From: Lachnospiraceae bacterium
Lineage (GTDB): Bacteria; Bacillota; Clostridia; Lachnospirales; Lachnospiraceae
Assembly (NCBI GenBank): GCA_017465845.1
Contig: JAFTVH010000002.1
Span: forward strand, 36,934-100,933
DNA: 64,000 nucleotides
Reading direction: 5' to 3'
In this document: positions 33,778-63,685 of the stretch, piece after piece
Position numbering within the stretch: position 1 is the first letter of the stretch
Layout: every line of letters begins with the position of its first letter
Made by a program: the position numbers and the translations under genes
Notes under the pieces: generated by a model
What the model saw: only the letters and a program-made list of their open reading frames with translations
Told to the model about the DNA's origin: nothing
The model's database searches: none

Positions 33778-33833
33778 GGCAAGAGTATTGGAACATGATA
33801 ATATAAAGAATGCAACGGATATCGCTAAAAAAG

Positions 33834-33862
33834 TTGTATGATGACGATTAATATGATAATAT
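33834..33862 (+). promoter_or_regulatory. Candidate promoter of the three-gene cassette
   Basis: TTGTAT at 33834-33839 and TAATAT at 33857-33862 with a 17-bp spacer lie 72 bases upstream of the 2012-codon gene. The surroundings are very AT-rich, so other -10 choices such as GATAAT at 33855 are possible. Confidence 0.4.
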
Positions 33863-33902
33863 AGTAATAGCATTTTGTTGATTTAATACGTAAAAGGGGA
33901 AG

Positions 33903-33923
33903 CTTTTAGTCGGGAACTAAAAG
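33903..33923 (+). promoter_or_regulatory. 8-bp inverted repeat over the ribosome binding region
   Basis: CTTTTAGT and ACTAAAAG are perfect inverted repeats around CGGGA. The right arm contains the only purine-rich run (AAAAGAGA) before the ATG at 33934, and no AGGAGG site exists. The element could be an operator, or an RNA hairpin that limits translation of the giant protein. Confidence 0.5.
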
Positions 33924-33933
33924 AGAATGTAGT

Positions 33934-36900
33934 ATGGAAAAATATATTTATCGGTTTCAGATATCCAATAACCAACAGGAGTATTCAAAATGTCTGGAAT
34001 TCATGGATGATATTGCGTCTAAAAGAATGAAAGGAACACAATATTATCAGCTGAATGTGCAATATTGTAAGGTCAATTCACCACAACCTGTTAATAAGAA
34101 TCTTTTGCAGGGAGAGGGATTTTCAGAGTGGAACGGGGAACAGATTTGGGAAGAAAATGTTGAACGGATATATATTTTTTATGTTACCTGTTCGGATGAG
34201 GATGATGTTGTCAATTTAATTTATTTCTGTATGATAAAAGACAGATATCCGGAAAGTATGCTTTGTGTTGATTCGTCGAATCCCGGAATGGCAGCTTCTG
34301 TTATACCACATTTTCTTTTTGATGAAATATCGGAAAGTATGAAGGTACATAATGTCAGTACCACATATATACGTAAGGCAGAAAGAGAAAACTTGAACTA
34401 CAATAACTTCGAGTATTTCATTAATGATGAGCATTACGGAATGATTCCGATGACAATGCCTTGGCAGAAGATATTTATCAAGTTTTCCAGTCTCATTAAG
34501 ATTGATCAGAAGGCTAATACTGCCAGAGTCTGGGGAACACCGGTTGGAAGTTTTTTGCGTCAGTTTTATCAAAAGGTTGGTTGGCAGAATGAATCAGGAT
34601 TCACATTGCAATATGTTTGTACGAATTATTGGCCCAAAATCATACCAAAAGCCTTGCTTAGGGATCCTAAGAACGCAGAGGATCAGAATCGGCTCGCTGG
34701 ACAATACTGGGAGTATAATCTGTTCAGAATTTTTACAGAGTGCCTCTGCAAGCTTGAAGAGAGAAAGTACAGTCCGTTAACAAAGAGACGTTATGCAATC
34801 ATACAGGATGGAAAATTCTTTGAATTGATTAAGGATATACCATTGCTTGCATTATATATATTCTGCTTATTTGATTATTTCTCAAAAGATATCTCAGAGA
34901 TGGAATTAACAGATGAGGAACTTTTCGAAATATTTCAGGAAAGGATATTCAATGCGCGGGATATGGCAGAGGGCCTGTTACAAATAATCGAAAATGTGTA
35001 TCATTCAGAGTATCACAAAGGTTACTTCTATTTCAGGATACACACTCTTAATAATGGGAGCAATGAATATTTAAAGCGAAATTATTTGAATTTTATTCAA
35101 AGTGAAACATTTAAGGTTGCCTCAGGGAAACAACATATATTGGAAGTAAAGGTGGCCGATTGTTCTCAGCAGGCAATTGCTGATATGTTTTTGAACAATT
35201 ATAAAAAGAGAATGGATGTGGTGGAGGGAGAGGATAGAGAAGCCTTCAATAGACTTTATCCGTGCGCAGAAAAAGTTACCCTGAGGTCGTTTTTTAATCC
35301 GAGTGATGAGGAAAGGGATTTTTGGCAGAGTTATAATAGCATTGCAGAGAATATAGTACATCATTATGGTTTACAAGCATTTGATTCCTTTGTTTTAAAT
35401 AATCAGGGATATTTTTATGTACAGAGTAAAAAAGGTTATTGTTTGAGCAGAGAGGAAGAGTTTTATGATTCCTTGAGAGAAAAGCAGTTAAATAGCTCCC
35501 ATACAATACCAGGATCTCAATATGAGGTCCTAATCCCGTTCCAGACAGAGTTGGAGCCGAAGAATACTTCGCTAAATGTAAATATTAACTATACGAAAAA
35601 GCTGTTATTAGATTATAATGTGGTACGATCCCTACCTTTTACCAGTGAAAGATGTACAAGGTGTTTTGAGGAACAACCTGATTCTTGGTCGTATCAGGAA
35701 AAAAAGGAAGGAACCATTCACGCATTATATCAGAAGTTCCATGAAACAGTAGAAACACATGAGAATGAAAAAGAAACTGTATTATGGTGTTCTGCCAGAG
35801 AGATTGCACTTACTATGACAGAGATGTTCTGTAAGGTGATCATGCTTCATATAGTAAAACTGCCATCGGATAGGCAATGCTTTTTGCTGGTAACTGACTG
35901 TACGCAGGCACATTTTATGGAAATTACCAGAATGTTTGCATTGTTTTATGATAAACAGGGAATGTCTTCTATTATGGACAGGGTGCAGATTTATTTAGCA
36001 GGAGAAAATAATGAAGAGTTTTTGATTGCAGGAGGAAATATCGGAACGCTTGCAGTAAAATCGGAAAAACTGGTGTTTGCTAAAGGTGTGACTCCAAAAT
36101 GTGTTGGAATTCTGAAAACAATGTTGAGAAATAAACCCGTGGGCGTGCAGGACTCAGATGTTGATATTATTCCTTTTGACATGATCAGGTATAGTGAAGA
36201 TAGGGAGACTCTGTTCGAGAAGAATGTCGGAAGTGTATTGGATACTGATATTCAGTCTACAGAATTTGGCTGCAAACTACAAAATTTGCATGTCAGAATA
36301 GGAAATAAGATTCATATCACTACGTTTTATGAAGCTGAATTACTGTTTCATAATAACTATTACACGTCTCGATTTGCTTATTGGCTGGCACAGAAAATTT
36401 ATGAAGACGATAAGCTTGATAAGAGTAAAAGTATTACTTTGGTAGGATACGAAACTTATTCAGAAATGCTGCTTCGGGAACTTCAAATGATGTTAGAAGC
36501 ACAATGGAAGGAATATGCTCCCAAAATTGAAAGTATCATATATGAGCAGAAGACGATGGAAAAATTTCGTGCGTCCGGAAAGCTTTACGAATATGCAGAC
36601 AGCCAGTTCATTTTAGTGGTTCCAATTAACTCGACTACGACAACTCACAGTAAGCTGGCCGCATTTTTACAGCAGTCTATAGAAAAATCATGGAAGCAGC
36701 AATATGAAAATATTGGAGATTCGAAAATCAATATTGCTGGAAATTATGGTGTTGTGGTCATCGGCCCGGATCATGAAACGGCCAAAGAAATGCAGATAGA
36801 ATATTGGGAGGAAAAAGAAAAATACGAACTTTATTCTAAAGTTCTGGATGATAAGGTTACATATTTTATCAAGGTTGTGGGAACATGGCATGAACCGCTG

Positions 36901-39900
36901 CAATGTAGGAAGTGTTTTCCTCTGGAAGACTATACATTGGAGCAGCCATTAATAGAGACAAATAAGGAATCCATTGTGCCCATGCACGCAATACGGATCA
37001 AAAGCAGGTATGCCAAGGAGCAGTATTCACCTTTTGATTGGGCCAGCGTGGATGTATCAGAATTGAAAAAGGTAGAAAAGCTGGCTGATTATTTGGTTTA
37101 TGGACATATTGTGAGAAAGAACAACCACTTTAACTATTATTTTGATACAGATAAATATTTTCACGATAATTCGGTTCAAAAAGATGTTATTGAGTGGTTA
37201 AAACGGTGCAGGAAAGACTACGATGAGGCAAAGCGAACGGAAGGAGTTGTATATGATATAATTGTTGCACCGCTTCATTTCAGTAATGCGGCATTTGTTA
37301 ATGCAGTGAACCGATATTTTTTTAATGATGCGGCTCTAGTATTGCATTTTGATATTGAAAAGGAATTTAGAAATAATGTCAAAACAAAGTATAGCAATCT
37401 GGTTACTTTGTACGAGAATTTGTGCGCATACAATAAGAAGGCTACGATTAATTTCCACTATGCAGATGATACGATTGTGTCAGGTGGCACATATGTTCGT
37501 GCACATAGTTTGATGCAGTCTCTTTTTCCGCGTAAAAAAGGAGCAGAGAATGTAGCGGTCAATGTATTTGCCAGTGTTATGATATTATTGAATCGAATGT
37601 CCTTGGATTCACAGCGTAATTATATATCTGATATTCGTTTTTTCTTTTCTTATGTAAATCTTCAGATTTCTTCAATGCGAAATCATGAGGATGCTTGTGT
37701 GTTATGTAAGAAGGAAAGTGATTATCTTCTGTTGGCGGAACAGTCTTCATTGAATGAAGTCTCCTGGTATTGGAAAGAAAAAAGCGGAAGATATCATTAT
37801 TCTGAAATAGAGGAATATCATGTACGACATCAGGATATAATGTCACAAGAGGAGCAGGAAAAAGAACTACGCCAAAAGAAAAGAGCGGTTATGCGTATGA
37901 TATGTTCTCACAAAGCGAATCTCCTCTTGTCCAGAATCAAAAATGATTACAATGAAGAAGGCATAGAAAGGCATATTTTTGATGAGCTATTAGTAAGAGA
38001 TAAGGAAGTAGTAGATATTGAAGAAATGATCGCTTATTTAAAGGTCATTGCACGCCCGTTTATATGCTTTAATAAAGAGGTTAAGAGTGCCATATTCAGT
38101 ATCATGCTGAAGATGTTAAATTATTTACTGATGGATGCTAATGGCAGAAAACAGGCAGGAGAGGAATATGAGAATATCAGTAAATGTCTGAATGCTGTGA
38201 TAAATAGTGAAGAGGATATGTTGTTGCTGATAAGGATTCTGATAAACCGTCTGGTAGAGTTGGGGTCAAATTATATTATAAGAAAAGAGAACATGGAAGC
38301 TCTGTTGGACTATGGGGTAAAACTGAGCGATAAGCAGAGAGAAAAGTTCTTTTTCATTTATGTAAATCGGGTGAAGCAGCTGATTTATAATGGTACGGAT
38401 GAAACAAAATCTCTGTTCTTTGAACATCTACTTCTTTATGATGAGGAATATGCGGGAAAGGAATGTATTCCGGATAATTTTAAGTGTTCCTTTGAATCCG
38501 GGGAAAAGGATGCATGTCTGAGAACTATGTTCTTGGAAAATTCTAAGGTCATAGTAAATGGTATAGGATATCTTAGTTTACTGGAGAATTATGATAAAGA
38601 TCATATTGAGGAGGCTTTGAATCATAGCTATTATCTGGAGAATTATGCACAGTTTTTGCAGTTTCAGAAAGTGGTAGAACACAAGGAGGGAAGGTTTTCT
38701 TTCATTGGAAATGAATGCGATAAAATACAAGGAATGATTGGCTTAAGGAAGCAGTTGAATAAGATCTTGAAGCCTGATAAAAAAACTGCCGTTGCTTCAT
38801 CGGATAATACTTACGGATTGTTGCTGAACAATATCATAGCAGCAACGGGAGCAGCAAACGGTGAATTTATTGTTCCGTATAAGGGCTATAATAAAGAAGA
38901 GAATTATCTGCCCCTGGAATTGAAACGTCCCAGCGTGAACCGGTATCCTAAATTTGATGATAGTACTTTAGTCAGGTTAGTTGAGAAGTATAAGGAAAAG
39001 CTGAATAATGGTACATATTATATTGAATGGGATGGAGCTTGCGAAAAGGGAGGTAAAGAGGGAAATGCTTATGTTATCATCCGATATGTAGGTATGAAGA
39101 AAGAAGTTGAGCGAATATCGGAAATCTATCTGATATTACTTTTTAGGGAAATTACAAATACACAGCTGTTTATTGCTCTCAAGAATGTATTGACCTTTAG
39201 AAAGGATATTTGGACTGTTTTCAACCTTACAAGTGATACACTGCTCAAAAACTGGATGAATGACAGATATTATAAGATGCAAATGAGAAAAGCAAGATCA
39301 GTTGGGCACAGAGATTTGGATAATTTAAAAGAATGTCTTGACTATGTAGCCCAAAACTATCACAATAAGGATTGTAAAGAGGTATACGAAAAGTATCTTT
39401 CATTAGCAGTGGATAGCCTGATAGGATATTATAATACAAAAATCCTCAGTGGCGAGTTTAAGGATTCTGCCGGTAATTGTCCTGGTACTTATACTTTTGG
39501 GGAGTTCTGGAGTTCAATAGAAAAGGAGGTTAATGCAGCGGCAGAATTGTGGTCTTTGACACTATTGGATAGAGAAGGACAGTCTTTTTATAAGGAAAGT
39601 GTGACCGGCAATATTAGAAGATGTCAGATTGAGGGGAGAGATGCACTGCCTGATCCAGGTACCTGTGAAATGATGATTTTGTCAGCATTGCAGAGTATAA
39701 GAAGACATTCTAAAGAAAACGATGTAAATGTAATCATATATGAGGCAGAAGGGTTTCTGTATATTAAGAACAGACTTTCTGAAGATTGCCAGGGGATTAA
39801 GGAAAATCTGAGAAGGGCAGAAAGAAGAGAAGGTGCCGGAATATCAGTGGCTGTCATAATTGATATATGTAAGATTTGGTATAATAACGAGGATACGATT

Positions 39901-39972
39901 GTATATGTAGAGGACGAAAGCAATTATTTTGTTGTAAGATTACCTATGTTAGAGATAGCGTCAAATAAGTAA
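33934..39972 (+). CDS. Giant protein with two GHKL-like regions, phosphoribosyltransferase-like segments and a kinase-like C terminus
   Basis: I do not recognise this 2012-residue protein as a named family. Visible parts, in order: an unknown N-terminal 340 residues; a GHKL-type ATPase region (about 340-536) with LLQIIENVYHS (Asn354), HHYGLQAF and GSQYEVLIPF; C574/C577; a possible phosphoribosyltransferase-like segment (ITLVGYETYSEMLL at 834 and ILVVPINSTTTT at 893); C991/C994; a clearer phosphoribosyltransferase-like segment with DIIVAPLHFSN near 1107 and HYADDTIVSGGT at 1175-1186; C1255/C1258; a long helical stretch; a GAF-like part (about 1600-1745); a possible dimerisation helix with His1792; and a degenerate GHKL end (1910-2006). 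No membrane segment is seen. The receiver and DUF2971 genes follow. Confidence 0.7.
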   Translation: MEKYIYRFQISNNQQEYSKCLEFMDDIASKRMKGTQYYQLNVQYCKVNSPQPVNKNLLQGEGFSEWNGEQIWEENVERIYIFYVTCSDEDDVVNLIYFCMIKDRYPESMLCVDSSNPGMAASVIPHFLFDEISESMKVHNVSTTYIRKAERENLNYNNFEYFINDEHYGMIPMTMPWQKIFIKFSSLIKIDQKANTARVWGTPVGSFLRQFYQKVGWQNESGFTLQYVCTNYWPKIIPKALLRDPKNAEDQNRLAGQYWEYNLFRIFTECLCKLEERKYSPLTKRRYAIIQDGKFFELIKDIPLLALYIFCLFDYFSKDISEMELTDEELFEIFQERIFNARDMAEGLLQIIENVYHSEYHKGYFYFRIHTLNNGSNEYLKRNYLNFIQSETFKVASGKQHILEVKVADCSQQAIADMFLNNYKKRMDVVEGEDREAFNRLYPCAEKVTLRSFFNPSDEERDFWQSYNSIAENIVHHYGLQAFDSFVLNNQGYFYVQSKKGYCLSREEEFYDSLREKQLNSSHTIPGSQYEVLIPFQTELEPKNTSLNVNINYTKKLLLDYNVVRSLPFTSERCTRCFEEQPDSWSYQEKKEGTIHALYQKFHETVETHENEKETVLWCSAREIALTMTEMFCKVIMLHIVKLPSDRQCFLLVTDCTQAHFMEITRMFALFYDKQGMSSIMDRVQIYLAGENNEEFLIAGGNIGTLAVKSEKLVFAKGVTPKCVGILKTMLRNKPVGVQDSDVDIIPFDMIRYSEDRETLFEKNVGSVLDTDIQSTEFGCKLQNLHVRIGNKIHITTFYEAELLFHNNYYTSRFAYWLAQKIYEDDKLDKSKSITLVGYETYSEMLLRELQMMLEAQWKEYAPKIESIIYEQKTMEKFRASGKLYEYADSQFILVVPINSTTTTHSKLAAFLQQSIEKSWKQQYENIGDSKINIAGNYGVVVIGPDHETAKEMQIEYWEEKEKYELYSKVLDDKVTYFIKVVGTWHEPLQCRKCFPLEDYTLEQPLIETNKESIVPMHAIRIKSRYAKEQYSPFDWASVDVSELKKVEKLADYLVYGHIVRKNNHFNYYFDTDKYFHDNSVQKDVIEWLKRCRKDYDEAKRTEGVVYDIIVAPLHFSNAAFVNAVNRYFFNDAALVLHFDIEKEFRNNVKTKYSNLVTLYENLCAYNKKATINFHYADDTIVSGGTYVRAHSLMQSLFPRKKGAENVAVNVFASVMILLNRMSLDSQRNYISDIRFFFSYVNLQISSMRNHEDACVLCKKESDYLLLAEQSSLNEVSWYWKEKSGRYHYSEIEEYHVRHQDIMSQEEQEKELRQKKRAVMRMICSHKANLLLSRIKNDYNEEGIERHIFDELLVRDKEVVDIEEMIAYLKVIARPFICFNKEVKSAIFSIMLKMLNYLLMDANGRKQAGEEYENISKCLNAVINSEEDMLLLIRILINRLVELGSNYIIRKENMEALLDYGVKLSDKQREKFFFIYVNRVKQLIYNGTDETKSLFFEHLLLYDEEYAGKECIPDNFKCSFESGEKDACLRTMFLENSKVIVNGIGYLSLLENYDKDHIEEALNHSYYLENYAQFLQFQKVVEHKEGRFSFIGNECDKIQGMIGLRKQLNKILKPDKKTAVASSDNTYGLLLNNIIAATGAANGEFIVPYKGYNKEENYLPLELKRPSVNRYPKFDDSTLVRLVEKYKEKLNNGTYYIEWDGACEKGGKEGNAYVIIRYVGMKKEVERISEIYLILLFREITNTQLFIALKNVLTFRKDIWTVFNLTSDTLLKNWMNDRYYKMQMRKARSVGHRDLDNLKECLDYVAQNYHNKDCKEVYEKYLSLAVDSLIGYYNTKILSGEFKDSAGNCPGTYTFGEFWSSIEKEVNAAAELWSLTLLDREGQSFYKESVTGNIRRCQIEGRDALPDPGTCEMMILSALQSIRRHSKENDVNVIIYEAEGFLYIKNRLSEDCQGIKENLRRAERREGAGISVAVIIDICKIWYNNEDTIVYVEDESNYFVVRLPMLEIASNK

Positions 39973-40004
39973 AGCCTTGAACCATGGAAAAAGGAGGAAA
40001 TGAA

Positions 40005-40529
40005 ATGGATATTAAATTGCTTTTGATTGAAGATGATGTGAATGACGTTGGATTAATAACAGATGCAATCAACGAGTTTGAAGATGTTGATTGGATGGGA
40101 ACAGAGTATCATTTTGTTGTTGAACATTTACCGGGAATGGGTGAAAAAGAGAAGATAAGAGGCAGAGAATATCTGTTTTATGATGATCACATCCTGGATG
40201 AGATTGAGCAGAGAATACAAAAAAAGGCAAACGGAATTAATTTGGGATTGTTACTGGATGTAGTTCTGACTAAGGATGAGTTGGAGTCAAAAGATAAAAA
40301 TTTTTATCCGGAAGTAAATATGGCCAGAACGATATATGAAAGATTTCATGATAAATTACCGATTTATGTTCTTACATCAGTTCCTTCTTTTTATACGCAC
40401 AGTGAACGAATTATGGGGGCAGATCTGTCTGAACAGTTTATTCCTAAGGAGGTATTGTTAAAATATAAGATGAAATCTATGCTTGAAAAGCTTAAGAATT
40501 ATTACATTAAATGGGGACAGAATGAATAG
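40005..40529 (+). CDS. Stand-alone receiver-domain protein
   Basis: This 174-residue protein has the key receiver residues: acidic pair D10/D11 in LLLIEDDVND, phospho-acceptor Asp85 in LGLLLDVVLT, Thr124 in IYVLTS and Lys148 in QFIPKE. It has about 35 extra residues between the first and third strands and no DNA-binding domain. The ATG at 40005 follows AAAGGAGG. It starts 32 bases after the giant gene, whose C-terminal end looks like a histidine kinase, so a phosphorelay between them is the natural inference. The lack of an output domain points to a protein partner, possibly the DUF2971 product. Confidence 0.8.
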   Translation: MDIKLLLIEDDVNDVGLITDAINEFEDVDWMGTEYHFVVEHLPGMGEKEKIRGREYLFYDDHILDEIEQRIQKKANGINLGLLLDVVLTKDELESKDKNFYPEVNMARTIYERFHDKLPIYVLTSVPSFYTHSERIMGADLSEQFIPKEVLLKYKMKSMLEKLKNYYIKWGQNE

Positions 40530-40593
40530 CTTACGAATCATTATGTTGTAGATAGATTAAAGAGTATTGTATACAATGGAAGAAGGGGAAATA

Positions 40594-41850
40594 ATGATCG
40601 GAGATTATAAGGAAGTATTACCGTTAGACAATCAAAAATATGATAATGTGAAATTGGAAGAATGCGAAGCATTTAAGATCCCTGGGAAAAGTCTGTTCCA
40701 CTATACATCCAGAGAGGTGTTTTGGAAAATTGTCGAGGATGAAACTTTTCTGGCTCGTCATATACTGTTCTCAAATGATTCTGAGGAATATGAATTGGGG
40801 AAAGAAAAGATTGATAAGATTTTAAAGCAAATCGGGTCTACAGCCGATATTGAAGAACCGGAAAAGAATGAAAGATATATGATATGCTTCTGCGAAGAAA
40901 AAGATTTACTGAGTCAGTGGAGGGGATATGCACAGAATGGTATTGCTATGGAATTTGATTTTTCGTTGGGCAGATATGGATTGACTAATGCGGACGGGAC
41001 GAAGACTCAATTTTCATCATATCACTGTTTTACACTGGTCAATAATGAAGCTGCTATGAAGAAAAAAGTGTATGATAAGGATGACTCGGCGGAGTATAAT
41101 GTAGAGGAGTACGAGAAACGTTATGTTTCAAGGACGGATAAGAAGTCTGAAAAGCTTGTTACATTGTGTATTGCAGCGCCATATAAAGTGTTCTACGTTG
41201 AGAAAAATGAGAGTGAGGACAACGACTTTGATAAGATGTTACAAAGTTTACAAAGTATGGATAATACAGTGCCAAACCTTATTAAATTGATCCCTTATAT
41301 TAAGAATGAAAAATTTGGCGAAGAAATGGAATATAGGCTGGTCTTTGACTTGTGGGGATTAATAGGTGACAAACGGGAATGGATTAGAGGCGAAAAGAAT
41401 ATCTATCTGGATGTAGATGGAGTAAAGAAACCGAATATTCGTGTTGAATTTGGTAATGCATTGGAGCGATTAAAAGAGAAAACAATTCGCTTATATTATT
41501 CAAACAATATGTATAAAGATGCATTAGAGAAATTTGTCGCCAGTGAAAAAATGGATATAGAATTGGTGATGGTCAGTGACCCTGCATTAAAAGAAAACGA
41601 GATTTTACTGGGAAATGGCCAGAAGCAGGAAATGGTAATGAGGGTGTTATCTGCATTTATTCAATCACAAAAGGATATATTTGTGAATACCAAAATATGG
41701 TGTGATGGGCATTTACCTATGAGACGGATAATGGTAGGGCCGAGTAAAGACGCTGAACTTATGAAAAAGAGTATTATTCAGTATAAACATAATAAGTACT
41801 GGATGAAATATATTGATGTGGTAATTTCAGATATTCCGTTCAGAAATTAG
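40594..41850 (+). CDS. DUF2971 domain protein
   Basis: This 418-residue protein has LFHYTSREVFWKIVEDE, FSNDSEEYELG, MICFCEEKDLLSQWRGYAQN with GIAMEFDF, and MEYRLVF, the order of conserved elements in DUF2971. The biochemical activity of DUF2971 is not established to my knowledge; members are frequent in variable and defence-rich regions. AAGGGG lies just before the ATG at 40594. As the last gene of the cassette, 64 bases after the receiver gene, it is a candidate effector. A very strong terminator follows. Confidence 0.8.
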   Translation: MIGDYKEVLPLDNQKYDNVKLEECEAFKIPGKSLFHYTSREVFWKIVEDETFLARHILFSNDSEEYELGKEKIDKILKQIGSTADIEEPEKNERYMICFCEEKDLLSQWRGYAQNGIAMEFDFSLGRYGLTNADGTKTQFSSYHCFTLVNNEAAMKKKVYDKDDSAEYNVEEYEKRYVSRTDKKSEKLVTLCIAAPYKVFYVEKNESEDNDFDKMLQSLQSMDNTVPNLIKLIPYIKNEKFGEEMEYRLVFDLWGLIGDKREWIRGEKNIYLDVDGVKKPNIRVEFGNALERLKEKTIRLYYSNNMYKDALEKFVASEKMDIELVMVSDPALKENEILLGNGQKQEMVMRVLSAFIQSQKDIFVNTKIWCDGHLPMRRIMVGPSKDAELMKKSIIQYKHNKYWMKYIDVVISDIPFRN

Positions 41851-41865
41851 TATTATAAATCATGG

Positions 41866-41928
41866 TTGGTTTGTACCTATTAAAACAAATAATAAAGTTG
41901 TTTTAATAGGTATAAACCAAATTTTTTG
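41866..41928 (+). terminator. Strong intrinsic terminator of the cassette
   Basis: A 23-bp stem with only one G-U pair: the left arm starts TTGGTTTGTACCTATT at 41866, and the right arm ends ATAGGTATAAACCAA at 41920. The loop is about nine bases and TTTTTTG follows. The stem is unusually long and AT-rich. Confidence 0.9.
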
Positions 41929-42860: not shown

Positions 42861-44324
42861 ATGGAAAATGAATTTCAGAAGAAACAAATGGAGCACATTT
42901 ACAATATTATCCGGGATGTTTTGAAAGATTGGTGGGTTGCTTTATTTATTGCGGTATCAATCTCTTTGTTATCCTATATTTTGGCATCTGTCACTTATCA
43001 TCCCACATATACGTCCAGTACCACCTTTGTTGTTTCTGCAAAAAGCAGTACCATGGGCACCTATGCCAATATCAGCAAAACGAATAAACTGACAAGCACC
43101 TTTCAGTCCGTTTTGGACAGTCAGGTCTTAAAAAAGAAAGTGGCAGAATCTTTGGAAATGGACTCTTTTGACGGAACGATTTCCATTTATGTAGTTCCGG
43201 AAACGAATCTTCTCACAGTATCGGTGACAAGTGATTCGCCGGAGATTTCTTTCCGCCTGTTAAAAGGAATATTAGACAACTATCAGACTATTTCTGCCAA
43301 TGTGCTTGGAGAGGTAGTTATGGAGATATTTGAGGAGCCCAATTATCCTTCTTATCCTAATCAATACTTCAATGGAAAGAATATCATGAAGAGAGTGTTC
43401 TTATATACCGGACTTTTAATGGTCTGTGTGTTGGGGCTTTTGTCATATTTTAAAGATACGGTGAAGTCGGAAGAAGAGATTTCGGAAAAACTGGATACCA
43501 ATGCTTTTGGTGTCTTAAAGTATGAGCCTGCTTATCGCAATCTCAAAGCTTTTTTGCGGGGGAATAAGAAGAAAATGTTGATTACGGAGCCGGCAGTCAG
43601 CTTTGGATATGTGGAAAATATCAAGAAGATGCGGACAAAATTATTTTATCAGAACGCGGATAGTCAGGCAAAAGTATTGTTGGTGACAAGTGCCATGCCC
43701 AAAGAAGGAAAAACTACTGTCGCTGTCAATCTGGCTCTGGCCATTGCACAGAGAGGGAAGAAAGTACTTCTGTTAAACGGAAATCTGAAGCAAGGTACGT
43801 TGGAAGAACTTCTGGGTGTCGCAGCACCGGAGAAAGAGGTCTTGGAGCTTGCAGGACAGGTAAGACAGACCAAGCATATGTCTCTGTATTTATGGACTAA
43901 TTATGGAAAGAAGATGAAGTCCACAGAATTTTTGGGTTCCAGACGTTTCGGCGAGTTCTTGAATCAAATGAGAGCAGAGATGGATTTTATTATTATCGAT
44001 GGACCGGCTGCCATAGGCAATGCAGACACGGAAATCCTGGCCAGAAGATCCGATTTTTCATTGCTGGTTGTGAAGCAGAATGATGCAAAGGTGTCAAGTA
44101 TTAATGATACCATTGATATGCTCAGCGGATATGGCAAGGGAGTCATAGGATGCGTGCTGAACAATGTTTTCCATCCGGGAACAGTGCTTGGTTACGGTTA
44201 CGGATATGGCTACGGATATGGATATGGCAAATATCGCTATGGCAAGTATCGTTATGGCAAGTACGGCTCCTATTATGGACATTATCATAGATCATCGCAA
44301 AAGGATGTGAAGGAAGAGGAGTAA
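42861..44324 (+). CDS. Wzz/BY-kinase-type protein with degenerate Walker A' and tyrosine-rich tail
   Basis: This 487-residue protein joins a Wzz-type chain-length domain (membrane helices near residues 28-48 and 175-195) to a BY-kinase-like ATPase. Walker A is SAMPKEGKTT (277-286) and Walker B FIIIDGPA (376-383). Walker A', normally with the pattern DxDxR, reads LLLNGNLKQG (303-312), so both aspartates are asparagines and the arginine is a lysine. The tail (about 441-474) holds some 14 tyrosines in GYGY and KYRYG units. It may be a poor kinase but a good phosphorylation target for the next gene product. Confidence 0.85.
   Translation: MENEFQKKQMEHIYNIIRDVLKDWWVALFIAVSISLLSYILASVTYHPTYTSSTTFVVSAKSSTMGTYANISKTNKLTSTFQSVLDSQVLKKKVAESLEMDSFDGTISIYVVPETNLLTVSVTSDSPEISFRLLKGILDNYQTISANVLGEVVMEIFEEPNYPSYPNQYFNGKNIMKRVFLYTGLLMVCVLGLLSYFKDTVKSEEEISEKLDTNAFGVLKYEPAYRNLKAFLRGNKKKMLITEPAVSFGYVENIKKMRTKLFYQNADSQAKVLLVTSAMPKEGKTTVAVNLALAIAQRGKKVLLLNGNLKQGTLEELLGVAAPEKEVLELAGQVRQTKHMSLYLWTNYGKKMKSTEFLGSRRFGEFLNQMRAEMDFIIIDGPAAIGNADTEILARRSDFSLLVVKQNDAKVSSINDTIDMLSGYGKGVIGCVLNNVFHPGTVLGYGYGYGYGYGYGKYRYGKYRYGKYGSYYGHYHRSSQKDVKEEE
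44173..44283 (+). repeat. Tyrosine-codon repeat in the kinase tail
   Basis: Short tandem units of GGTTACGGATATGGC type encode GYGYG, followed by three copies of AAATATCGCTATGGC type encoding KYRYG/KYG. All are in frame and give the tyrosine cluster of the kinase-like protein. Confidence 0.8.
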
Positions 44325-55663: not shown

Positions 55664-58600
55664 ATGAAGAAACGAAGCACAGGCAAGAAACTTCTGGGAA
55701 TGGCGTTAACATTCATGACGGTATTTTCATTGTCATTAATGGATGTATCTGCTGCTGTTGGCGACCTGTCAAATGTATCTACTGGGTTAACGGGGAATAT
55801 TGATACCAGTGATACCATTAGCTTGCCTATTAGAATTTTGGATTATGAAGCAGATGGTATGCTCTTTGAGTATGCGGAAGCGAATGGTGTTAAAAGTGCA
55901 GCTGATTTCGGTGCGACATGGTACGAAGATTACACGGCCAGAACAGCTGTGGGCGGCACCATTAATACGGGGAACTATTGGTCGGATGTTACACTGGCGT
56001 TAAAGACCGGAACGTATGCAAATTATACAAGAGCGACATGGGCGGGGAATACAACCGCGAATTGGACCGGAAATCGTGCAGGTGTAGTACTTGCTGACTT
56101 TAGTACAAGCAGTACATACACAACAGACCAGGTTCGATACATGGTTATAGTATTCCGCTCTAATGTAAGAAGCGGTAATTTTACAGTTGGCCTTAACCGT
56201 GCTAATTTAAATGGAGCAGGCACTAGTGGTAACTATACCGGCAATATAGCGGTTACTACAGAAAACAATACTAATTGGACGTATGCAGTTTTAGATCTGA
56301 AGACTGGTACGCTTGGCTCTAATTGGAGTAAGGGTGCTGTTCAAGGAGTCTATGTAGGTCTTCCTATTGATGGATCCGGCGAGTGGATGGATATTGCCCA
56401 TGTTGCTTTTTTCAGTAATAAAGATATGGCAACAAAGTTCGGCGAATATGCATTGACAGACGGCAGTGACAGAGGTGATAACCGAGCATTTGGCTTGCTT
56501 CGCCACTCAAGAACACAGTCCGGTGGAACTGGTTATACGGGAATTATTGATGAGACAACAACAGTTGAACAGTTAAATACATATGGCGACACGACATCCG
56601 TTGATTTCAGCACATTAACTACTCTTGGCTATAAATTGCTTGGAACTTTTAAGCAGAGTGGTATTGCGAATGTAGGATTATTAGAATCAAGCCTGAGTAG
56701 TGAAGGGTATCCTGTTTATAAAAAAGAGGTAGTTACATATGTGGCTAATCTTTTAAAGAACTCTCTTTCAATCACGGAAAGAACTTCTGACGGCTGGAAG
56801 AACTACAGATATGTAAAAGGTACGGCAAGTTCTATATATGGCGGCACTGATCTGGCAACAGCATTACGCAATAAAATCAATGGAACTATGGGAACCTATG
56901 CTGCTGCAACAGAAAAAGATTTGGTCGGTACCTGGGAAGAATGCGGAGGAAATATTGCATCCTACTATGATGCAGCGTATTTCCTGTTGAATAGTATTTT
57001 TGTAAGCGGTTCTTATAATGAGTTGCAGGATGATTACGATTATCTTGTATTGTCTGCCGGAACTGACAGCACAACGGGCGATAAAGTATACATTTTTGAC
57101 GGCGGTTTTACAACATCTGCCACTCCTGCGTCAGCAAGAATTGCTATTAATTACGATAGCACAAAGCGAATAATCCAAAACAGCACTGCTGCAGGAAAAA
57201 CACATTTCGTATATGAAGGAAACAGTACAACTACATTAAATCCGTTCTTGCCTGTTACTGAAGATAACAATGCTACAGGACAGACAAAGAGCGTATACTA
57301 TCAGGATCCTGGTGTTTTAAGTACAGTTGCAACAAAGGATACCTATGTGGAGCGTGACTTCAACTTTGCAATGGTAAGCGAAGGGGAATTCGTTTATCAT
57401 GAGGATGAGAACTTATTCTTCGAGTTTGAAGGCGATGACGATGTTTACCTGTTTATCGATGGCGAACTTGTAATGGATATCGGTAGTGCACATAGTATTG
57501 ATGGTGTGCGCTTTGAACTAAATGATTATGTGGAAGCTGCAAAAGCGGGAACGCTTGGCAGTGCCGAACGTAATAAAAAGCTGACTTTGGAAGAAGGCGA
57601 TACATATTCTTTCAAGTTCTATTACATGGAGCGTCATGGATATGGTTCCAATATTCGAATCAACACCAATATTAAAGTAACTGACCCGAGTATGGTGACA
57701 GAGAAGACTGCTTATCAGAATGGAAGTCAGATTGAATATGGTAACATTATCAACAAAGATGAAGTTGTAGAATATGGATTTGCAATAACAAACAACGGAA
57801 GTGAAAATTTATATAATTTATCATTTACAGACAACGATATCGGAGTGATAATTGATGGTGTCAATGGTCTGCAGGTTACCGGATCCAGGGTATATGACGT
57901 AAATGGCGGAACATTAGAGGCAACCGATCTGGTAGCAGTTGTTTCGGGCCCCGGCTATGACGATATTACTGTTACTTTTGCAAATAATGAAGAATTAAAA
58001 GCCTTTATGGCATCTCTTACAGATGACGCAGTAATAGAAAATGGTGGCGGGCTTTGGAAAGAGAGTAAGGTTTTAATTCGTGGAATCGGATATAGATTGA
58101 CTGATGCACAGGTTAAAGCAGGAGTATTTGATAATACGGTCTTTTCTGCATCAACAAATTTGACAAAATCAAAAACATTACAGGGTCAGGCTACCATGCG
58201 TGTGTTTGTTCCCTCAGACCCGATGTATTATCAGTGGGCCAGCCATGATTTGGTAGTTACCAAATCAGATTTGATTACAGATATTCTGGCGGCTGCAAGT
58301 CAGGAGGATAATGTTTTATATGGTAAGGTTCCGAATCTTACAACTGGTAATGTAAATAAAATTGTGTTCTGTAAATCAAACGGAACTGAAATTACATCCG
58401 AGAATGCGACAATTAGCAGCAGCTATGATTTAACAATCAATTACAGCACAACGGGTTCCTATGTTTTCTATATAAAGATTACATATAATTCAAATGCTAA
58501 TAATGCGGTTGTTCCGGTGCTTGTGAATGTTACAGACGTAAAAGACAGTGTATATGTCCTTGACTATGGCTTGACTGCAGATTTGACGGATGATTTACAT

Positions 58601-60673
58601 GAGAATGATACCTTGACAGTCCCTGGACGTAATACAGATTACAAGCTGGAAGGTGTGACAGCAGATACACATTCTTATAAGCCCAACAATATTACTTTTA
58701 CAAATGCACAAAATTCTTCTTTAACCGGAGAATTTGGTAAGTACAGTTTGAGCGATAAAGCATTGTCTTATACGCCACAAGATTTCATGGAGGGATACGA
58801 CGAAATCTATACTGCAGTCCGTGTTTATGAGGGAACAGCTTCATCAGGAATAGGAAATGTTAACATCAACAGAGAAGTTGAAATGTTCAAAAAGGTAACA
58901 GTGTTACCGGCTACTGTAGTATATTACGAGGATGACTTCCCGGCAATCAAATATGAGGAAGCTCAGAACATAATCACAACAGATGGTAAATCTACCAACC
59001 TTGAACAGAATGTAGACAATAATGAAAATTACGGACATGATAATGTATATCAGGTTGCAGGAAATGTTAACTCCAGTGCAGGAACATTGACAACGATCAC
59101 CATCAAAGATACGAATACCTTTGCAAGTTTTGAATTTAAGGGTACCGGATTTGAAATTATTGGTCGTACAGATGCTAATAATGCGGGAATTATGATAGTA
59201 AGTGTCTACGAAAAAGGTGGCGAAAACCCTGTAAAACGCATCCCGGTTATTACGGAATATGATAACGGTGCTAATGGCGGAAATGATAGAATTCACCAGG
59301 TACCTGTTGTAAGAGTAAAGGGTCTTGACTCGGAGAAGACATATGAAGTTAAGATTTCCGGTATCCCGAAACGTGATTATGAGAATTGGGATGGAACGGG
59401 TTCACCTGAAGTGATAAATTCTTTCTTGTATATTGACGGATTACGTATTTATCAGCCTTTAGGTGACAGCGATGATAATTATACTGCAGAGGAAAATGGC
59501 GCAACATTTGCTGAAATCAGAAATCTGATTGCAGGTGGTTCAGTTGCCGTAGCGGAATACGAAGAAGTATATGACGAGTCCGATGAATTCAGGGTTGTTT
59601 CAGTTTCTGTCTCATCAGGAACAAGAACTAATACACAGACCTGGGTAGAAAACAGAAATGGTGATGCCTATGTTGAGGTAGAGGGCGAGGAAGAACCGGA
59701 AGTTGTAGAGAATGTTGTAGGTTCCGTTGATGATTATTTGAGATATGGACCAAACAATGAAGTGTATTTGGAAGGTACCTATTCTTACGAAGCGCTCGTA
59801 TTCTATGTGAAAGAAGACGCTGAGGCTGATGCACACAATCTTCAGGTTGCGATGCGGGCAATCGATGCAGGATTATTTAAGGGAGCTTTAGAAGAGGGTG
59901 AAGAAGCGGGTGTAGAAGCTCGTGTTAAATATGCTATTGAAACTGAAAATGGTATTGAATGGCAAACCATTACAGAATTAGGCAGCTCTACAGAGCAGTA
60001 TTACACCATTGATTATACACAGTGCCCGTATGATGCTGAAACGGGATACTATCAGGTTGTAATTACTGTGGGTGATCCTGATGAAGATGAGGATGAATAT
60101 GATGCTGTTGACAGTATGGTATCATTTTCAACTCTGAAATATAATGGACTTGAAATTGTTGCAGAAGATACATCAGGGAATGCTATGTTCAATGACACAG
60201 CAACAATATCTTATGTAGGCGGTGTTTTACCGTTAAGTAAGGCAAGAATGCTTGTAAGATCAGTGCTAAAAGCGCCGGTAACGCAGGCATCAACATCTAA
60301 GGAATCAACAACCGAAGAATCCACAACAAAAGAGTCGGAAACTGAGGAATCAACAACGGAGGAGGCGATAACAGAAGAGTCAACAACCGAAAAGTCAGAA
60401 ACTGAGGAATCATCAACCGAGGAGTCGACAACAGAAGAATCAACAACAGAAGAATCAACAACCGATGAATCAGAAACCGAGGAATCAGAAACTGAGGAAT
60501 CTGAAACCGAGGAATCGGAAACCGAGGAATCGGAAACTGAGGAATCTGAAACTGAGGAATCAACATCTGAAGAGTCAGAAACTGAGGAATCAGTCGAAGA
60601 GTCTACAACTGAAGAATCAACATCCGAAGAGGTGCCAAATGGGGAGGCAACATCTGAGGAATCAACAGTTTAA
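55664..60673 (+). CDS. Large secreted fibro-slime-domain surface protein
   Basis: This 1669-residue protein has a signal peptide with likely cleavage after VSA (residue 30). A fibro-slime-type domain lies at about 560-670: RDFNFAMVSEGEFVYHEDENLF is followed by a DDDVYLFIDGELVMDIG metal-binding-like loop, as in PA14-related modules. Several beta domains follow. Residues 1545-1669 are a repeat of (S/T)TEES units. It ends ATSEESTV, with no LPXTG motif and no C-terminal membrane helix, so it is either released or held by non-covalent contacts. It is the largest surface protein in the window. Confidence 0.8.
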   Translation: MKKRSTGKKLLGMALTFMTVFSLSLMDVSAAVGDLSNVSTGLTGNIDTSDTISLPIRILDYEADGMLFEYAEANGVKSAADFGATWYEDYTARTAVGGTINTGNYWSDVTLALKTGTYANYTRATWAGNTTANWTGNRAGVVLADFSTSSTYTTDQVRYMVIVFRSNVRSGNFTVGLNRANLNGAGTSGNYTGNIAVTTENNTNWTYAVLDLKTGTLGSNWSKGAVQGVYVGLPIDGSGEWMDIAHVAFFSNKDMATKFGEYALTDGSDRGDNRAFGLLRHSRTQSGGTGYTGIIDETTTVEQLNTYGDTTSVDFSTLTTLGYKLLGTFKQSGIANVGLLESSLSSEGYPVYKKEVVTYVANLLKNSLSITERTSDGWKNYRYVKGTASSIYGGTDLATALRNKINGTMGTYAAATEKDLVGTWEECGGNIASYYDAAYFLLNSIFVSGSYNELQDDYDYLVLSAGTDSTTGDKVYIFDGGFTTSATPASARIAINYDSTKRIIQNSTAAGKTHFVYEGNSTTTLNPFLPVTEDNNATGQTKSVYYQDPGVLSTVATKDTYVERDFNFAMVSEGEFVYHEDENLFFEFEGDDDVYLFIDGELVMDIGSAHSIDGVRFELNDYVEAAKAGTLGSAERNKKLTLEEGDTYSFKFYYMERHGYGSNIRINTNIKVTDPSMVTEKTAYQNGSQIEYGNIINKDEVVEYGFAITNNGSENLYNLSFTDNDIGVIIDGVNGLQVTGSRVYDVNGGTLEATDLVAVVSGPGYDDITVTFANNEELKAFMASLTDDAVIENGGGLWKESKVLIRGIGYRLTDAQVKAGVFDNTVFSASTNLTKSKTLQGQATMRVFVPSDPMYYQWASHDLVVTKSDLITDILAAASQEDNVLYGKVPNLTTGNVNKIVFCKSNGTEITSENATISSSYDLTINYSTTGSYVFYIKITYNSNANNAVVPVLVNVTDVKDSVYVLDYGLTADLTDDLHENDTLTVPGRNTDYKLEGVTADTHSYKPNNITFTNAQNSSLTGEFGKYSLSDKALSYTPQDFMEGYDEIYTAVRVYEGTASSGIGNVNINREVEMFKKVTVLPATVVYYEDDFPAIKYEEAQNIITTDGKSTNLEQNVDNNENYGHDNVYQVAGNVNSSAGTLTTITIKDTNTFASFEFKGTGFEIIGRTDANNAGIMIVSVYEKGGENPVKRIPVITEYDNGANGGNDRIHQVPVVRVKGLDSEKTYEVKISGIPKRDYENWDGTGSPEVINSFLYIDGLRIYQPLGDSDDNYTAEENGATFAEIRNLIAGGSVAVAEYEEVYDESDEFRVVSVSVSSGTRTNTQTWVENRNGDAYVEVEGEEEPEVVENVVGSVDDYLRYGPNNEVYLEGTYSYEALVFYVKEDAEADAHNLQVAMRAIDAGLFKGALEEGEEAGVEARVKYAIETENGIEWQTITELGSSTEQYYTIDYTQCPYDAETGYYQVVITVGDPDEDEDEYDAVDSMVSFSTLKYNGLEIVAEDTSGNAMFNDTATISYVGGVLPLSKARMLVRSVLKAPVTQASTSKESTTEESTTKESETEESTTEEAITEESTTEKSETEESSTEESTTEESTTEESTTDESETEESETEESETEESETEESETEESETEESTSEESETEESVEESTTEESTSEEVPNGEATSEESTV
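60291..60670 (+). repeat. Glu/Ser/Thr repeat at the end of the fibro-slime protein
   Basis: About 25 in-frame 15-bp units of GAAACTGAGGAATCA type encode (E/T)TEES. They are variable in sequence but keep the frame. The region is strongly acidic and could be a wall-spanning or cation-binding stalk. Confidence 0.85.
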
Positions 60674-60713
60674 GAATTAATAGCAAATTGTATTTGGGGT
60701 GTTACAGAATAAT

Positions 60714-60747
60714 GGGAAGAACTGTCGCAAATGCGACAGCTCTTCCC
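60714..60747 (+). terminator. Stem-loop between surface genes
   Basis: A 15-bp stem with one mismatch (GGGAAGAACTGTCGC with GCGACAGCTCTTCCC) and an AAAT loop lies 41 bases after the fibro-slime gene. Only GGTTT follows, so it is a weak terminator or a processing hairpin that protects the upstream message. Confidence 0.55.
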
Positions 60748-60796
60748 GGTTTAGCGAAAAAACAAAAAAATCCAAGAAGAGAAGAGTATTTTATTT

Positions 60797-63685
60797 ATGA
60801 GAACAATAGGAAAAAAAATAATAGCATTTTTATTGGTTGTAACAACATTGGTCAGTGTAAACATTACTGTATCTGCATCAGCAACGGATGCATCTAATTA
60901 TGGCAAATTGTTAGATTCTTATACATCTAATAGCAGCAAATTCACCCTTACAACTTCCAGCAGGCTTTTCGTAGTGTCTGATTCTGAACCTACAGGAGAT
61001 CTGCTTCAGACAGTACAGCTTGTTAACAGTCAGCTTGCATCAAAAGGACTTCCAAGTTCCTCTGCACTGGATATTGCATGGGGACCTGAAAGCTATGCAA
61101 AAGCAGGAGATATCGTTATTGTAAAAGATAGCTCTTTAGCAACAGAAGCATACAAGTTGGAGGTTACTGAGAAAGCGGTTGTTTCTTATGCAGACGTGGA
61201 TGGTCTGATTTACGGAGTTAACAGCTTAATTAAATTTTTCATAGCTGACGGTGATTGTAGTTTATCCGGATTTACAGCGGCCGATGCCCCTGATACAAAA
61301 GAGCGTACCGTTATGTTAGATACCGGACGTAAGTATTACACTGCTGAGTGGATTAAAAATTTCATCAAACAAATTTCATGGATGGGTTATAATACCCTTG
61401 AACTGCACTTTTCAGAAGATGGTGGTTTCCGTGCTGATTTCTGGGATCCGGCTTATTATACAGATAATTATAGCCCTGATAACGATTTTACATGGCTTTG
61501 CGGAAGCCATGTGCAGTCATGGGTAAAGGATCCATATAGAACAGATCCCGATGCAGGCAAATATCTGACAACTGCAGAGCTTGTTGATATTCTTAAAACT
61601 GCTAAAGAGTATCATATTGATGTGATCCCTTCTTTCGATAGTCCGGCGCACATGGATTATATCACATGGAAGTTTGAACAGAATTATAAGAGTAATAAAA
61701 GTTACAGTTTTACTTATGATGGAACAACTTACAAAGCATCATCAACAAGTGGATGCATTAACTATACCGGTAAAACCGGAGCATCTACTCCTACATGGCC
61801 ATATTATACAACCATCGATATTACAGATGGAACAATGGCAAAAGCATTTGTTTTTGCACTGTATGAAGATATTGCAGATTTCTTTAAAGAATATGCAGGA
61901 AGTACAGATTTTTCCATTGGCGCAGATGAAGTAAATTTGAGTTCAGGTTATGGCATTAAATGGAGTTACAGTGCTTTCCCAGGTTATGTCAATGAACTGA
62001 ACAGAATGTTAAATGATAAGGGCTATACCTGCCGTATGTTCAATGACTTTATTGGTTCTACTACATATAATCAGAGCAGTTCAGCAAAAGCTATATATGA
62101 TTTTGATGACAACATTGAAATTATGTACTGGAACTCTGATTTTAATCCCACAACAGGTAAATGGGATGAACCTATCTGGCATGTGAAATTCTTCTGGGAA
62201 AACAATACCGGAAGCACAGACAACTGGGGTGATGGCGGAAGAACGCTTTACAACTGTATTCAGACAAACTGTTATTATGTATTGCGTGTAGCAGCAAGTA
62301 CGACAAGTTATCCAAATATGGATGCACGAAATCCTGAAAATTATAACTGGACATTCTATCACAGCAACGAAGAGGATATTTACAATGAATGGTATCCTGC
62401 GGATATCAGTGAAAAAGGTCTTTATACAGAGTATGCCACAGATGTACCGGCAGATCAGTTGGGCGGTGCTTACTTCCTGATTTGGAACGACTATGCATCA
62501 CTGAACACAGAAGCTGAAGTCTGGAATGGTGTGAAAGATAATACCGGGACAAGCAGCTATACATACAGCTTGTTTAATCGTATGTGGTCTAACACCATGA
62601 AAATGTGGAATTCAGACATCAATGACACTGTGACTTATAGCAATTTTGCAACGATTCGTGATGAGTTCGGATACTTCCCGGGCTTCACAAGTTGTTCAAA
62701 GTCAGCTTCTTTACCCACAGCAAGCACTCCTTATCAGGCAAGAATGGCAGATAATTCTGAGCTGGAAGCAGCTTTAGCAAACAAAATCTCAAACGAAAAC
62801 AGCTTATATACAGCAGAAAGCTACGCAGCTTATGAAAATGCTTACAAAGCTGCAGTAAGTGTAAATGATAACTATGCTTCAACAGCAGACAGCATTGCAG
62901 CTGCAATCACAGCACTTAAGAATGCAGAAGCAGCCCTGACTGTAAATAAGTTAACTGTATATTATAAAGCAACGGTGGATAGCAGTGAAACAACTGTTCA
63001 GACGGCAACGACACATACACCGGATGGTTCAGGAAATTATAGTATTACACTTGGAGAAATGGAAGGTTATAAGATTGTAAATGTTGATGGCACGACAACA
63101 TTTACTCCGAACGATACTAACACTGCAGGTACGCTCGCAGGAAATATCCAAAATGGTGCGACAGTTGTTACGGTATGGTATGAAAAGACTGCTCCGTCAC
63201 TGGATGCGCTGAACGCTTTATTAGAAGATGCAATTACAGAACAGGGAAAATATACAGATGAATCCTGGGCTGCATATGAAGCTGTCAGAGATGAAGCATT
63301 GTCAGTCAGTGCACAGTTGCCGGATGGTTATACACAAGAAGATGTTGATGATTTGGCTCAGAGATATGAAGCGGCGAAAAAAGCATTAGTTGTTGAAGGG
63401 GCTGAAACAGCGATTGAATCTATTAAGAGAATGTCAACTACGGTACGTGTGAAAAAACCGATTGGCCTTAAAATTACAACAACTGCAGATGTGACATCTA
63501 TTGAAGTCAACGGTGCAGCACCTTCCAGTGCTACCAGCAGTACTACAACATTGGAAGATGGCAGCGAAGGAAAGCTTTGGATAATTAACTTCAAAGCACC
63601 TTCAACCAAAGGAAAATATACCTTTACAATTGGTGCAGTTGGTGATGCTACGGTTACTGAAGATATCACAATTACAGTAAAATAA
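60797..63685 (+). CDS. Secreted GH20 beta-N-acetylhexosaminidase-like enzyme
   Basis: This 962-residue protein has a signal peptide (cleavage near VSASA, residue 28), an N-terminal GH20b-like domain, and a GH20 barrel with VMLDTGRKYYTAEWIKNFI, NTLELHFSEDGG, VIPSFDSPAHM and the catalytic pair Asp377-Glu378 in IGADEV. Later parts include two FIVAR-like helical modules (near 650-720 and 810-870), a beta module and a final FTIGAVGDATVTEDITITV domain. It should cleave terminal GlcNAc or GalNAc (or lacto-N-biose) from host or bacterial glycans. No LPXTG signal is present. Confidence 0.87.
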   Translation: MRTIGKKIIAFLLVVTTLVSVNITVSASATDASNYGKLLDSYTSNSSKFTLTTSSRLFVVSDSEPTGDLLQTVQLVNSQLASKGLPSSSALDIAWGPESYAKAGDIVIVKDSSLATEAYKLEVTEKAVVSYADVDGLIYGVNSLIKFFIADGDCSLSGFTAADAPDTKERTVMLDTGRKYYTAEWIKNFIKQISWMGYNTLELHFSEDGGFRADFWDPAYYTDNYSPDNDFTWLCGSHVQSWVKDPYRTDPDAGKYLTTAELVDILKTAKEYHIDVIPSFDSPAHMDYITWKFEQNYKSNKSYSFTYDGTTYKASSTSGCINYTGKTGASTPTWPYYTTIDITDGTMAKAFVFALYEDIADFFKEYAGSTDFSIGADEVNLSSGYGIKWSYSAFPGYVNELNRMLNDKGYTCRMFNDFIGSTTYNQSSSAKAIYDFDDNIEIMYWNSDFNPTTGKWDEPIWHVKFFWENNTGSTDNWGDGGRTLYNCIQTNCYYVLRVAASTTSYPNMDARNPENYNWTFYHSNEEDIYNEWYPADISEKGLYTEYATDVPADQLGGAYFLIWNDYASLNTEAEVWNGVKDNTGTSSYTYSLFNRMWSNTMKMWNSDINDTVTYSNFATIRDEFGYFPGFTSCSKSASLPTASTPYQARMADNSELEAALANKISNENSLYTAESYAAYENAYKAAVSVNDNYASTADSIAAAITALKNAEAALTVNKLTVYYKATVDSSETTVQTATTHTPDGSGNYSITLGEMEGYKIVNVDGTTTFTPNDTNTAGTLAGNIQNGATVVTVWYEKTAPSLDALNALLEDAITEQGKYTDESWAAYEAVRDEALSVSAQLPDGYTQEDVDDLAQRYEAAKKALVVEGAETAIESIKRMSTTVRVKKPIGLKITTTADVTSIEVNGAAPSSATSSTTTLEDGSEGKLWIINFKAPSTKGKYTFTIGAVGDATVTEDITITVK

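Follow-up and report, generated by a model that had tools for sequence, protein, structure and literature searches.

What does a protein of more than two thousand residues do when its gene is followed, head to tail, by genes for a stand-alone receiver and a DUF2971 protein? The question is raised by a stretch of DNA from a gut-type Lachnospiraceae bacterium (GCA_017465845.1, contig JAFTVH010000002.1, positions 36,934-100,933 of the forward strand), the whole 64,000 nucleotides (nt) of which are referred to here as the window. Three consecutive open reading frames (ORFs) lie on its + strand, as do all features described below: the giant, a sensor/kinase-like protein of 2012 amino acids (aa; 33934..39972); a receiver-like protein of 181 aa (39984..40529); and a DUF2971 protein, the presumed effector, which ends at 41850 and starts at TTG 40567 (427 aa) or, probably, at ATG 40594 (418 aa). 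The intergenic gaps are 11 and 37 nt. An initial annotation of this DNA had listed the three genes in this order as a self-contained cassette, and we find that the cassette is real and conserved. It is unnamed by the libraries searched (Pfam, NCBIfam and PADLOC), in which no model convincingly matches the giant. We propose that it forms a cytosolic two-component-like switch, in which a sensor-kinase-like giant would act through the stand-alone receiver on an enzyme-like DUF2971 effector, and we assign this reading a probability of roughly 0.55.

The argument begins with co-occurrence. An alignment- and profile-based scan of one genome per species yielded 44 loci with homologues of the giant, a pattern-based count that is a lower bound; seven of them are L010-L016 again (loci and genomes carry L and G numbers here). 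The same scan of genome contigs with the single giant protein as query found nothing. Downstream genes could be assessed at 41 loci, the contigs of L032, L033 and L049 ending no more than 264 bases past the giant. In 38 of the 41, a receiver-size ORF and then a DUF2971 gene follow the giant, two loci with a broken DUF2971 frame (L044 and L048) being counted among them. Both gaps are below 120 nt in 37 of the 38; at L057, the only exception, two pieces make up the giant. Pairwise distances for the core, the C-terminus, the receiver and the DUF2971 protein correlate at r 0.82-0.92 (0 of 500 shuffles), values that are uncorrected for organism phylogeny and to which shared organism history contributes. 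Genome G783 has a DUF2971 match about 2.7 kb downstream of its match to the giant, on the same strand. The joint occurrence of giant, receiver and DUF2971 genes, which the initial annotation had put forward as a check on its cassette, is thus a repeated feature, and together with the operon-like spacing it bears out the self-contained unit.

The giant is distributed sporadically. Its homologues occur in 8 of 397 Lachnospiraceae genomes, 4 of 392 genomes in an order-wide sample and 2 of 398 in a phylum-wide sample, each count including the window's own genome; one of the four order-wide matches (G621; 32 residues, E 1.5e-4, with an internal stop) was treated as chance and discounted. The giant does not occur in any of the 10 further genomes of its genus listed in the order-wide sample, and in its own genome, which is 85% complete, the only match is the window copy. 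Twenty-seven of the 44 loci are labelled Lachnospiraceae or bear the names of genera in that family. Conservation among the homologues does not come from near-copies, since clustering of 45 sequences of the phosphoribosyltransferase (PRTase)-like domain described below leaves 43 clusters at 90%, 34 at 70% and 16 at 50% identity. Single records are labelled Treponema, Spirochaetaceae, Cloacimonadota, Bifidobacteriaceae, Bacteroides and Gastranaerophilales (L046, L053, L058, L061, L065 and L068). All six are metagenome-assembled genomes, so misbinning is possible; the alternative is transfer.

How might such a protein signal? Neither Pfam nor NCBIfam matched the giant at E<=1, and a PADLOC match to JetB over 46 residues (E 0.0066) was taken as chance. 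Profile comparison by hhalign placed a GHKL domain at either end. GHKL-1 (residues 300-545; 34831..35568) matched 28 histidine-kinase domains from its own genome at 93.7% (E 1.9e-7), with 0 of 60 column shuffles as good. Its motif residues Asn354, Asp409 and His477-x-Gly479 are invariant in those of the 51 alignment rows that have a letter at these positions (41/41 for Asn354 and for Asp409, 42/42 for His477 and Gly479). GHKL-2 (residues 1905-2008; 39646..39957), whose ATP-site motifs are partly degenerate, lies in a C-terminus that matched histidine kinases of the same genome at 94.1% (E 1.3e-7; 0 of 60 shuffles). Scores of GHKL-1 and the C-terminus with own-genome response regulators or PRTases were below 1%, and the highest unrelated or cross score in an earlier round of comparison was 6.9%, between GHKL-1 and the C-terminus. 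Pfam found HATPase_c in one of 23 giants scanned (E 0.078) and HATPase_c_3 in none.

Ahead of GHKL-2 lies His1792 (39307..39309), the presumed phospho-acceptor, in an H-box-like [RK]xxxH[TS] setting, with Arg following the His in the window, that we take to resemble AgrC-type H-boxes. This His is invariant in all 39 giants that have the C-terminal segment (the window included; L033 is without downstream DNA). The receiver has conserved residues of its own. As the initial annotation had indicated, the key positions are present, namely Glu16-Asp17(-Asp18), with Asp17 at 40032-40034, and Asp92 at 40257-40259. Asp17 and Asp92 are each found in 38 of 39 receivers and a neighbouring acid at position 16 in 37 of 39. 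The window receiver was matched by no model in Pfam, NCBIfam or PADLOC, PF00072 included; its hhalign score against response regulators of its own genome is 65.7% (E 5.8e-5; 0 of 60 shuffles), and scores against kinases and PRTases reach at most 1.1%. One of the 39 receivers has a PRTase-CE match (E 0.0012).

The strongest sign of a connection between the giant's C-terminus and the receiver comes from three loci, L055, L062 and L063, that are without both the receiver and DUF2971. All three carry calcineurin-like phosphoesterase motifs, identified by eye, in the C-terminal part of the giant (L055, L062) or in the next ORF (L063). Pfam Metallophos matched two of the 23 giants scanned, with a best E of 8.9e-15; the matching members are unnamed, and the set held L055 and L062 and not the L063 piece. 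All three retain GHKL-1, which L062 encodes in a gene of its own (472 aa), and the profile of the C-terminal His/GHKL-2 segment matched none of them. An apparent His1792 in L055 and L062 is the DxH motif of the phosphoesterase falling in the same column, and both loci stand outside the 39. The His/GHKL-2 segment is therefore present or absent together with the receiver and DUF2971, and its co-loss with them at these three loci suggests that the C-terminus talks to the receiver; the exchange of outputs likewise suggests a sensor at the front of the giant that is able to take another output. In L062 the giant is made as two adjacent genes, a GHKL part (L062:9167-10585) and a PRTase-phosphoesterase part (L062:10598-16555), the end of which is overlapped by a gene for a probable 300-aa membrane protein (L062:16539-17441), possibly part of the variant. 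By BLAST, L062 is one of four loci (with L049, L050 and L061) in which two ORFs encode the giant and their junction falls near window residues 620-790, past GHKL-1 and ahead of the PRTase-like part; at L057, L060, L064 and L065 it breaks elsewhere. These divisions may be natural splits or damage.

These observations can be arranged into a candidate pathway. An intracellular cue would be sensed by the giant through the GHKL-1 ATPase and the PRTase-like core; a nucleotide or PRPP (phosphoribosyl pyrophosphate)-type ligand is our guess. Sensing would change the state of the C-terminal His1792/GHKL-2 module, which would exchange phosphate with Asp92 of the separate receiver; the receiver would then release or activate the DUF2971 protein, and this protein would act on the cell or an invader. 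In the minority variant, the relay would be dispensed with, and a calcineurin-like phosphoesterase would be joined to this core or sit next to it. The order from cue to core, His1792, Asp92 and DUF2971 is proposed because of the co-occurrence, the residue conservation and the output swap; from the sequences we infer the ligand, the phosphotransfer, the direction of control, the chemistry of the effector and the cytosolic location of the switch. Signalling by phosphorylation, as the initial annotation had it, is supported by the invariant His, the two GHKL domains and the receiver, and is called into doubt on one side by the degenerate state of GHKL-2.

Several observations weigh against the proposed relay. 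The N-box Asn of GHKL-2 is present in 20 of 39 giants, with Ser in 15 of 39, including the window, and the Gly that starts its G2-like GIS motif is present in 26 of 39; with motifs this degenerate, GHKL-2 may not bind ATP. The hhalign match of GHKL-1 spans 42 columns, only the part from G2 onward. A reference of three HATPase_c_5 sequences scored 4.7% with GHKL-1 and 0.4% with the C-terminus, the latter value running counter to an AgrC-like reading of the motifs. No profile match covers the segment around His1792 itself, the kinase match starting after the His, and the distance from His1792 to the N-box is 125-178 aa across the giants, about 130 in the window; in ordinary kinases it is about 100-110 aa. 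Locus L046 retains the module and the giant's His, and its receiver (L046:15320-15811) is a pseudo-receiver that has lost both conserved Asp residues. Finally, DUF2971 also exists outside the module: among 199 genomes searched, 11 had hits, 10 of them with no giant detected and only G783 with one. The degeneracy of GHKL-2 leaves two arrangements to consider. In one, ATP may be used at GHKL-1 and the C-terminus may serve as a phosphotransfer module, for which ChpT and Spo0B offer a parallel; in the other, each step of the chain may depend on binding only.

The last arrangement amounts to a different device, in which no phosphate is transferred. GHKL-2 and the receiver would be binding modules, giant and receiver would together hold DUF2971 inactive in a complex, and ATP or a ligand at GHKL-1 or the PRTase-like domain would release it, as with a toxin under the control of a giant inhibitor-sensor in two parts. 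Degenerate ATP motifs in GHKL-2 alongside invariant ones in GHKL-1, and the L046 receiver without either Asp, speak for such a device; a His conserved in 39 of 39 giants and an Asp92 conserved in 38 of 39 receivers are hard to explain without phosphate chemistry, and we consider this alternative rather unlikely. The relay remains the reading that we prefer.

The center of the giant bears on what might be sensed. Residues 1040-1262 (37051..37719) form a PRTase-like domain. It contains a motif resembling a PRPP loop, DD(x)4G, at 1178-1184, and a CxxC at 1255-1258. In rows with a letter, Asp1178 is kept in 44 of 45, Asp1179 in 43 of 45 and Gly1184 in 45 of 45. The comparison with PRTases gave 5.9% in hhalign over 25 columns (0 of 60 shuffles as good), a weak match in the Protein Data Bank (PDB) was to the amidophosphoribosyltransferase 6lbp (E 0.082), and Pfam gave no PRTase match in the window giant or the 23 giants scanned; together these are a weak hint of PRTase-like identity. 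A second conserved domain precedes it (residues 815-1000; 36376..36933; CxxC at 991-994). Its by-eye label as a first PRTase was rejected, the hhalign score being 0.2% with 3 of 60 shuffles as good. The description of the giant as a GHKL/PRTase-like protein thus stood for GHKL, found at both termini, and weakly for one PRTase domain. Cys991, Cys994, Cys1255 and Cys1258 are invariant (44/44 rows with a letter) and may bind zinc. Searches of the PDB by hmmsearch with profiles of GHKL-1, the C-terminus, the receiver, DUF2971 and the whole giant returned only matches taken as chance.

A conserved PRPP-loop-like motif and a weak match to amidophosphoribosyltransferase could also signify a metabolic enzyme complex, for nucleotide salvage or another pathway, with the PRTase-like domain at its center. 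We regard this as very improbable: the distribution is sporadic, the gene is linked to a receiver and DUF2971, the top 25 Pfam families in the flanks include no salvage family, and one or both Asp residues of the motif are lost in two of the three phosphoesterase variants.

The identity of the third gene product as a DUF2971 protein was confirmed by PF11185 (23.4 bits, cut-off 22), a model that matched 36 of 37 module proteins longer than 300 aa at E<=1, and the module proteins matched other DUF2971 proteins at 99.4% in hhalign (E 1.5e-21). A profile search of the window's own genome at E<=0.001 gave no match, the window's own copy also failing to reach this threshold. The N-terminal part (LYHYTS...IL), the first His of which is not conserved, scored 14% over 32 columns against the start of DarT-type ADP-ribosyltransferases represented by five rows, other profiles reaching at most 0.32%, and 7.7% over 26 columns (0 of 60 shuffles) with 10 DarT rows. 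One module DUF2971 protein has a Tox-ART-HYD1 match (E 0.06). We treat an ADP-ribosyltransferase-like start as a hint only.

Does the module serve its neighbours? As first described, it lies within a surface-polysaccharide region, genes of this type, named by eye, flanking it on both sides. This raises the possibility that the module is a regulator or modifier that acts on, or controls, the adjoining capsule or exopolysaccharide genes. Across loci, we compared flanks with control regions, which are the starts of numbered contigs from module-bearing genomes and not random draws, using a polysaccharide reference set drawn partly from the case loci, with self-matches removed; 42 of the 44 loci had a flanking ORF to compare. 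ORFs of polysaccharide type made up 24 of 301 in the flanks, taken to 5.5 kb, versus 9 of 488 in the controls (p 6e-5), and at least one was present at 14 of 42 loci and in 4 of 51 control regions (Fisher p 0.003). Pfam Glycos_transf_2 was found in 7 of 130 flanking ORFs (135 were drawn, and four system pieces and one L062 neighbour ORF, L062:16539-17438, were dropped), and did not reach the top 25 families in the 139 control ORFs. Polysaccharide genes are therefore modestly enriched near the module. Against a functional tie, 28 of 42 loci have none within 5.5 kb, the difference disappears when at least two ORFs are required (5 of 42 versus 2 of 51, p 0.24), and loci did not differ from controls (10 of 42 versus 3 of 14) in an earlier comparison that used only genes of the window, a wider flank and 14 control regions. 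The partial origin of the reference set in the case loci also counts against it, and polysaccharide gene regions are in general prone to recombination. We judge a polysaccharide-directed function improbable.

A role as an accessory conflict system, anti-phage or stress-related, is favoured by analogy, given the sporadic spread, the exchange of outputs and the company of similar published systems. The suggestion that the cassette is an anti-phage or anti-plasmid system survives in part, a defence role being plausible. Speaking against it, no homologue of the giant was found in collections of phages, plasmids and viral contigs, and PADLOC revealed no usable difference in defence genes between flanks and controls: at E<=1e-10 there were 112 families over the 130 flanking ORFs and 64 over the 139 control ORFs, and among the top 25 families of each, the commonest (mad3, mad8, pVip and AriA) occurred in both. 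A more specific version, which we hold only tentatively and think doubtful as a whole, is an immune-type system in which a nucleotide-sensing GHKL/PRTase giant would fire a DUF2971 enzyme, possibly with an ADP-ribosyltransferase-like fold, by phosphorelay and not by transcription, and a sister type would fire a phosphoesterase attached to the sensor.

The cassette is closed by a hairpin terminator with a T-run behind it (41866..41920; 23-nt arms 41866-41888 and 41898-41920, 96% complementary), which at -29 kcal/mol and z -6.0, with 0 of 200 shuffles equally good, is as strong as the initial annotation had claimed. It was absent from a consensus scan because its 9-nt loop exceeds the 3-8 nt allowed there. 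A hairpin with a T-run follows only 11 of 37 module DUF2971 genes, so conservation of the module does not extend to the terminator. The promoter proposed ahead of the giant was not recovered, the consensus scan listing no sigma-70-like + strand site in 33778-33933. At a G+C content of 0.34-0.37 the module belongs to the A+T-richest parts of the window; the preceding polysaccharide genes have 0.36-0.41 and the outer parts up to 0.50. Elsewhere in the window, 42861-44324 encodes what appears by eye to be a chain-length/tyrosine-kinase-like polysaccharide protein with an unusual Gly/Tyr-rich repeat (GYGYGYGYGYGKYRYGKYRYGKYG) near its C-terminus, and two very large adjacent ORFs at 55664-63685 (1669 and 962 aa), with signal-peptide-like starts, probably encode surface proteins.

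The proposed switch, if correct, would be a two-component-like relay that acts through an effector protein and not through a DNA-binding regulator, and its sensor would be one that swaps outputs. It would also supply a set of partners for DUF2971, a family named as being of unknown function, and residues for direct tests: His1792, Asp92, Asn354 and Asp1178. A search of open-licence papers found no description of this gene set. Several published systems resemble parts of it, and the comparisons that follow draw on those passages of the cited papers that describe each one. VcSduA, a GHKL-Shedu/paraMORC3 protein with demonstrated anti-phage activity, has an N-terminal GHKL ATPase thought to control its effector (PMC12137116), as is proposed for the module; its effector is a fused DUF4263 nuclease, unlike that of the module, and the description mentions no receiver, PRTase or DUF2971. 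Ter-type systems have nucleobase PRTases for which synthesis of a nucleotide-type signal in conflict systems has been proposed (PMC7824862); their description, unlike the module, names no GHKL, receiver or DUF2971, and the giant matched no Ter family. HATPase and REC domains, of the types combined in the module, appear among the defence systems predicted by DefensePredictor, a comparison made with the figure legend only (PMC13092281).

The closest published kind is the HEF_HK (PF19191)/Response_reg_2 (PF19192) pair. The Pfam models for these families fail to match, so we do not file the module as a member: the 23 giants scanned together matched 20 families at E<=1, HEF_HK not being one of them, and Response_reg_2 is not in the best 25 of 42 families for 39 receivers, where listed families with a single member reach E 0.091 and any further match is weaker. 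A search for HEF_HK in 398 Bacillota genomes found none; no control genome matched either, so this result carries little weight. Restriction-modification genes, which are overrepresented near HEF_HK/Response_reg_2 genes as a feature of membership (PMC8011034), are represented in the module flanks by MTase_II models that each match 1 of 130 ORFs (among the best 25 of 112 families). Proteobacteria account for 69.8% of the sequences in that study (PMC8011034), in contrast to the 27 of 44 module loci assigned to Lachnospiraceae. Also unlike the published pairs, the giant has a PRTase-like core and four conserved Cys residues, a DUF2971 gene follows, and a phosphoesterase variant exists. The architecture is nevertheless shared. 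HEF_HK proteins are soluble, with GHKL domains at both ends and a His-bearing part, and are encoded next to a divergent receiver with which they are predicted to form a cytosolic relay (PMC8011034); the giant, with its N- and C-terminal GHKL domains, its His-bearing part and its adjoining stand-alone divergent receiver, is built on the same plan.

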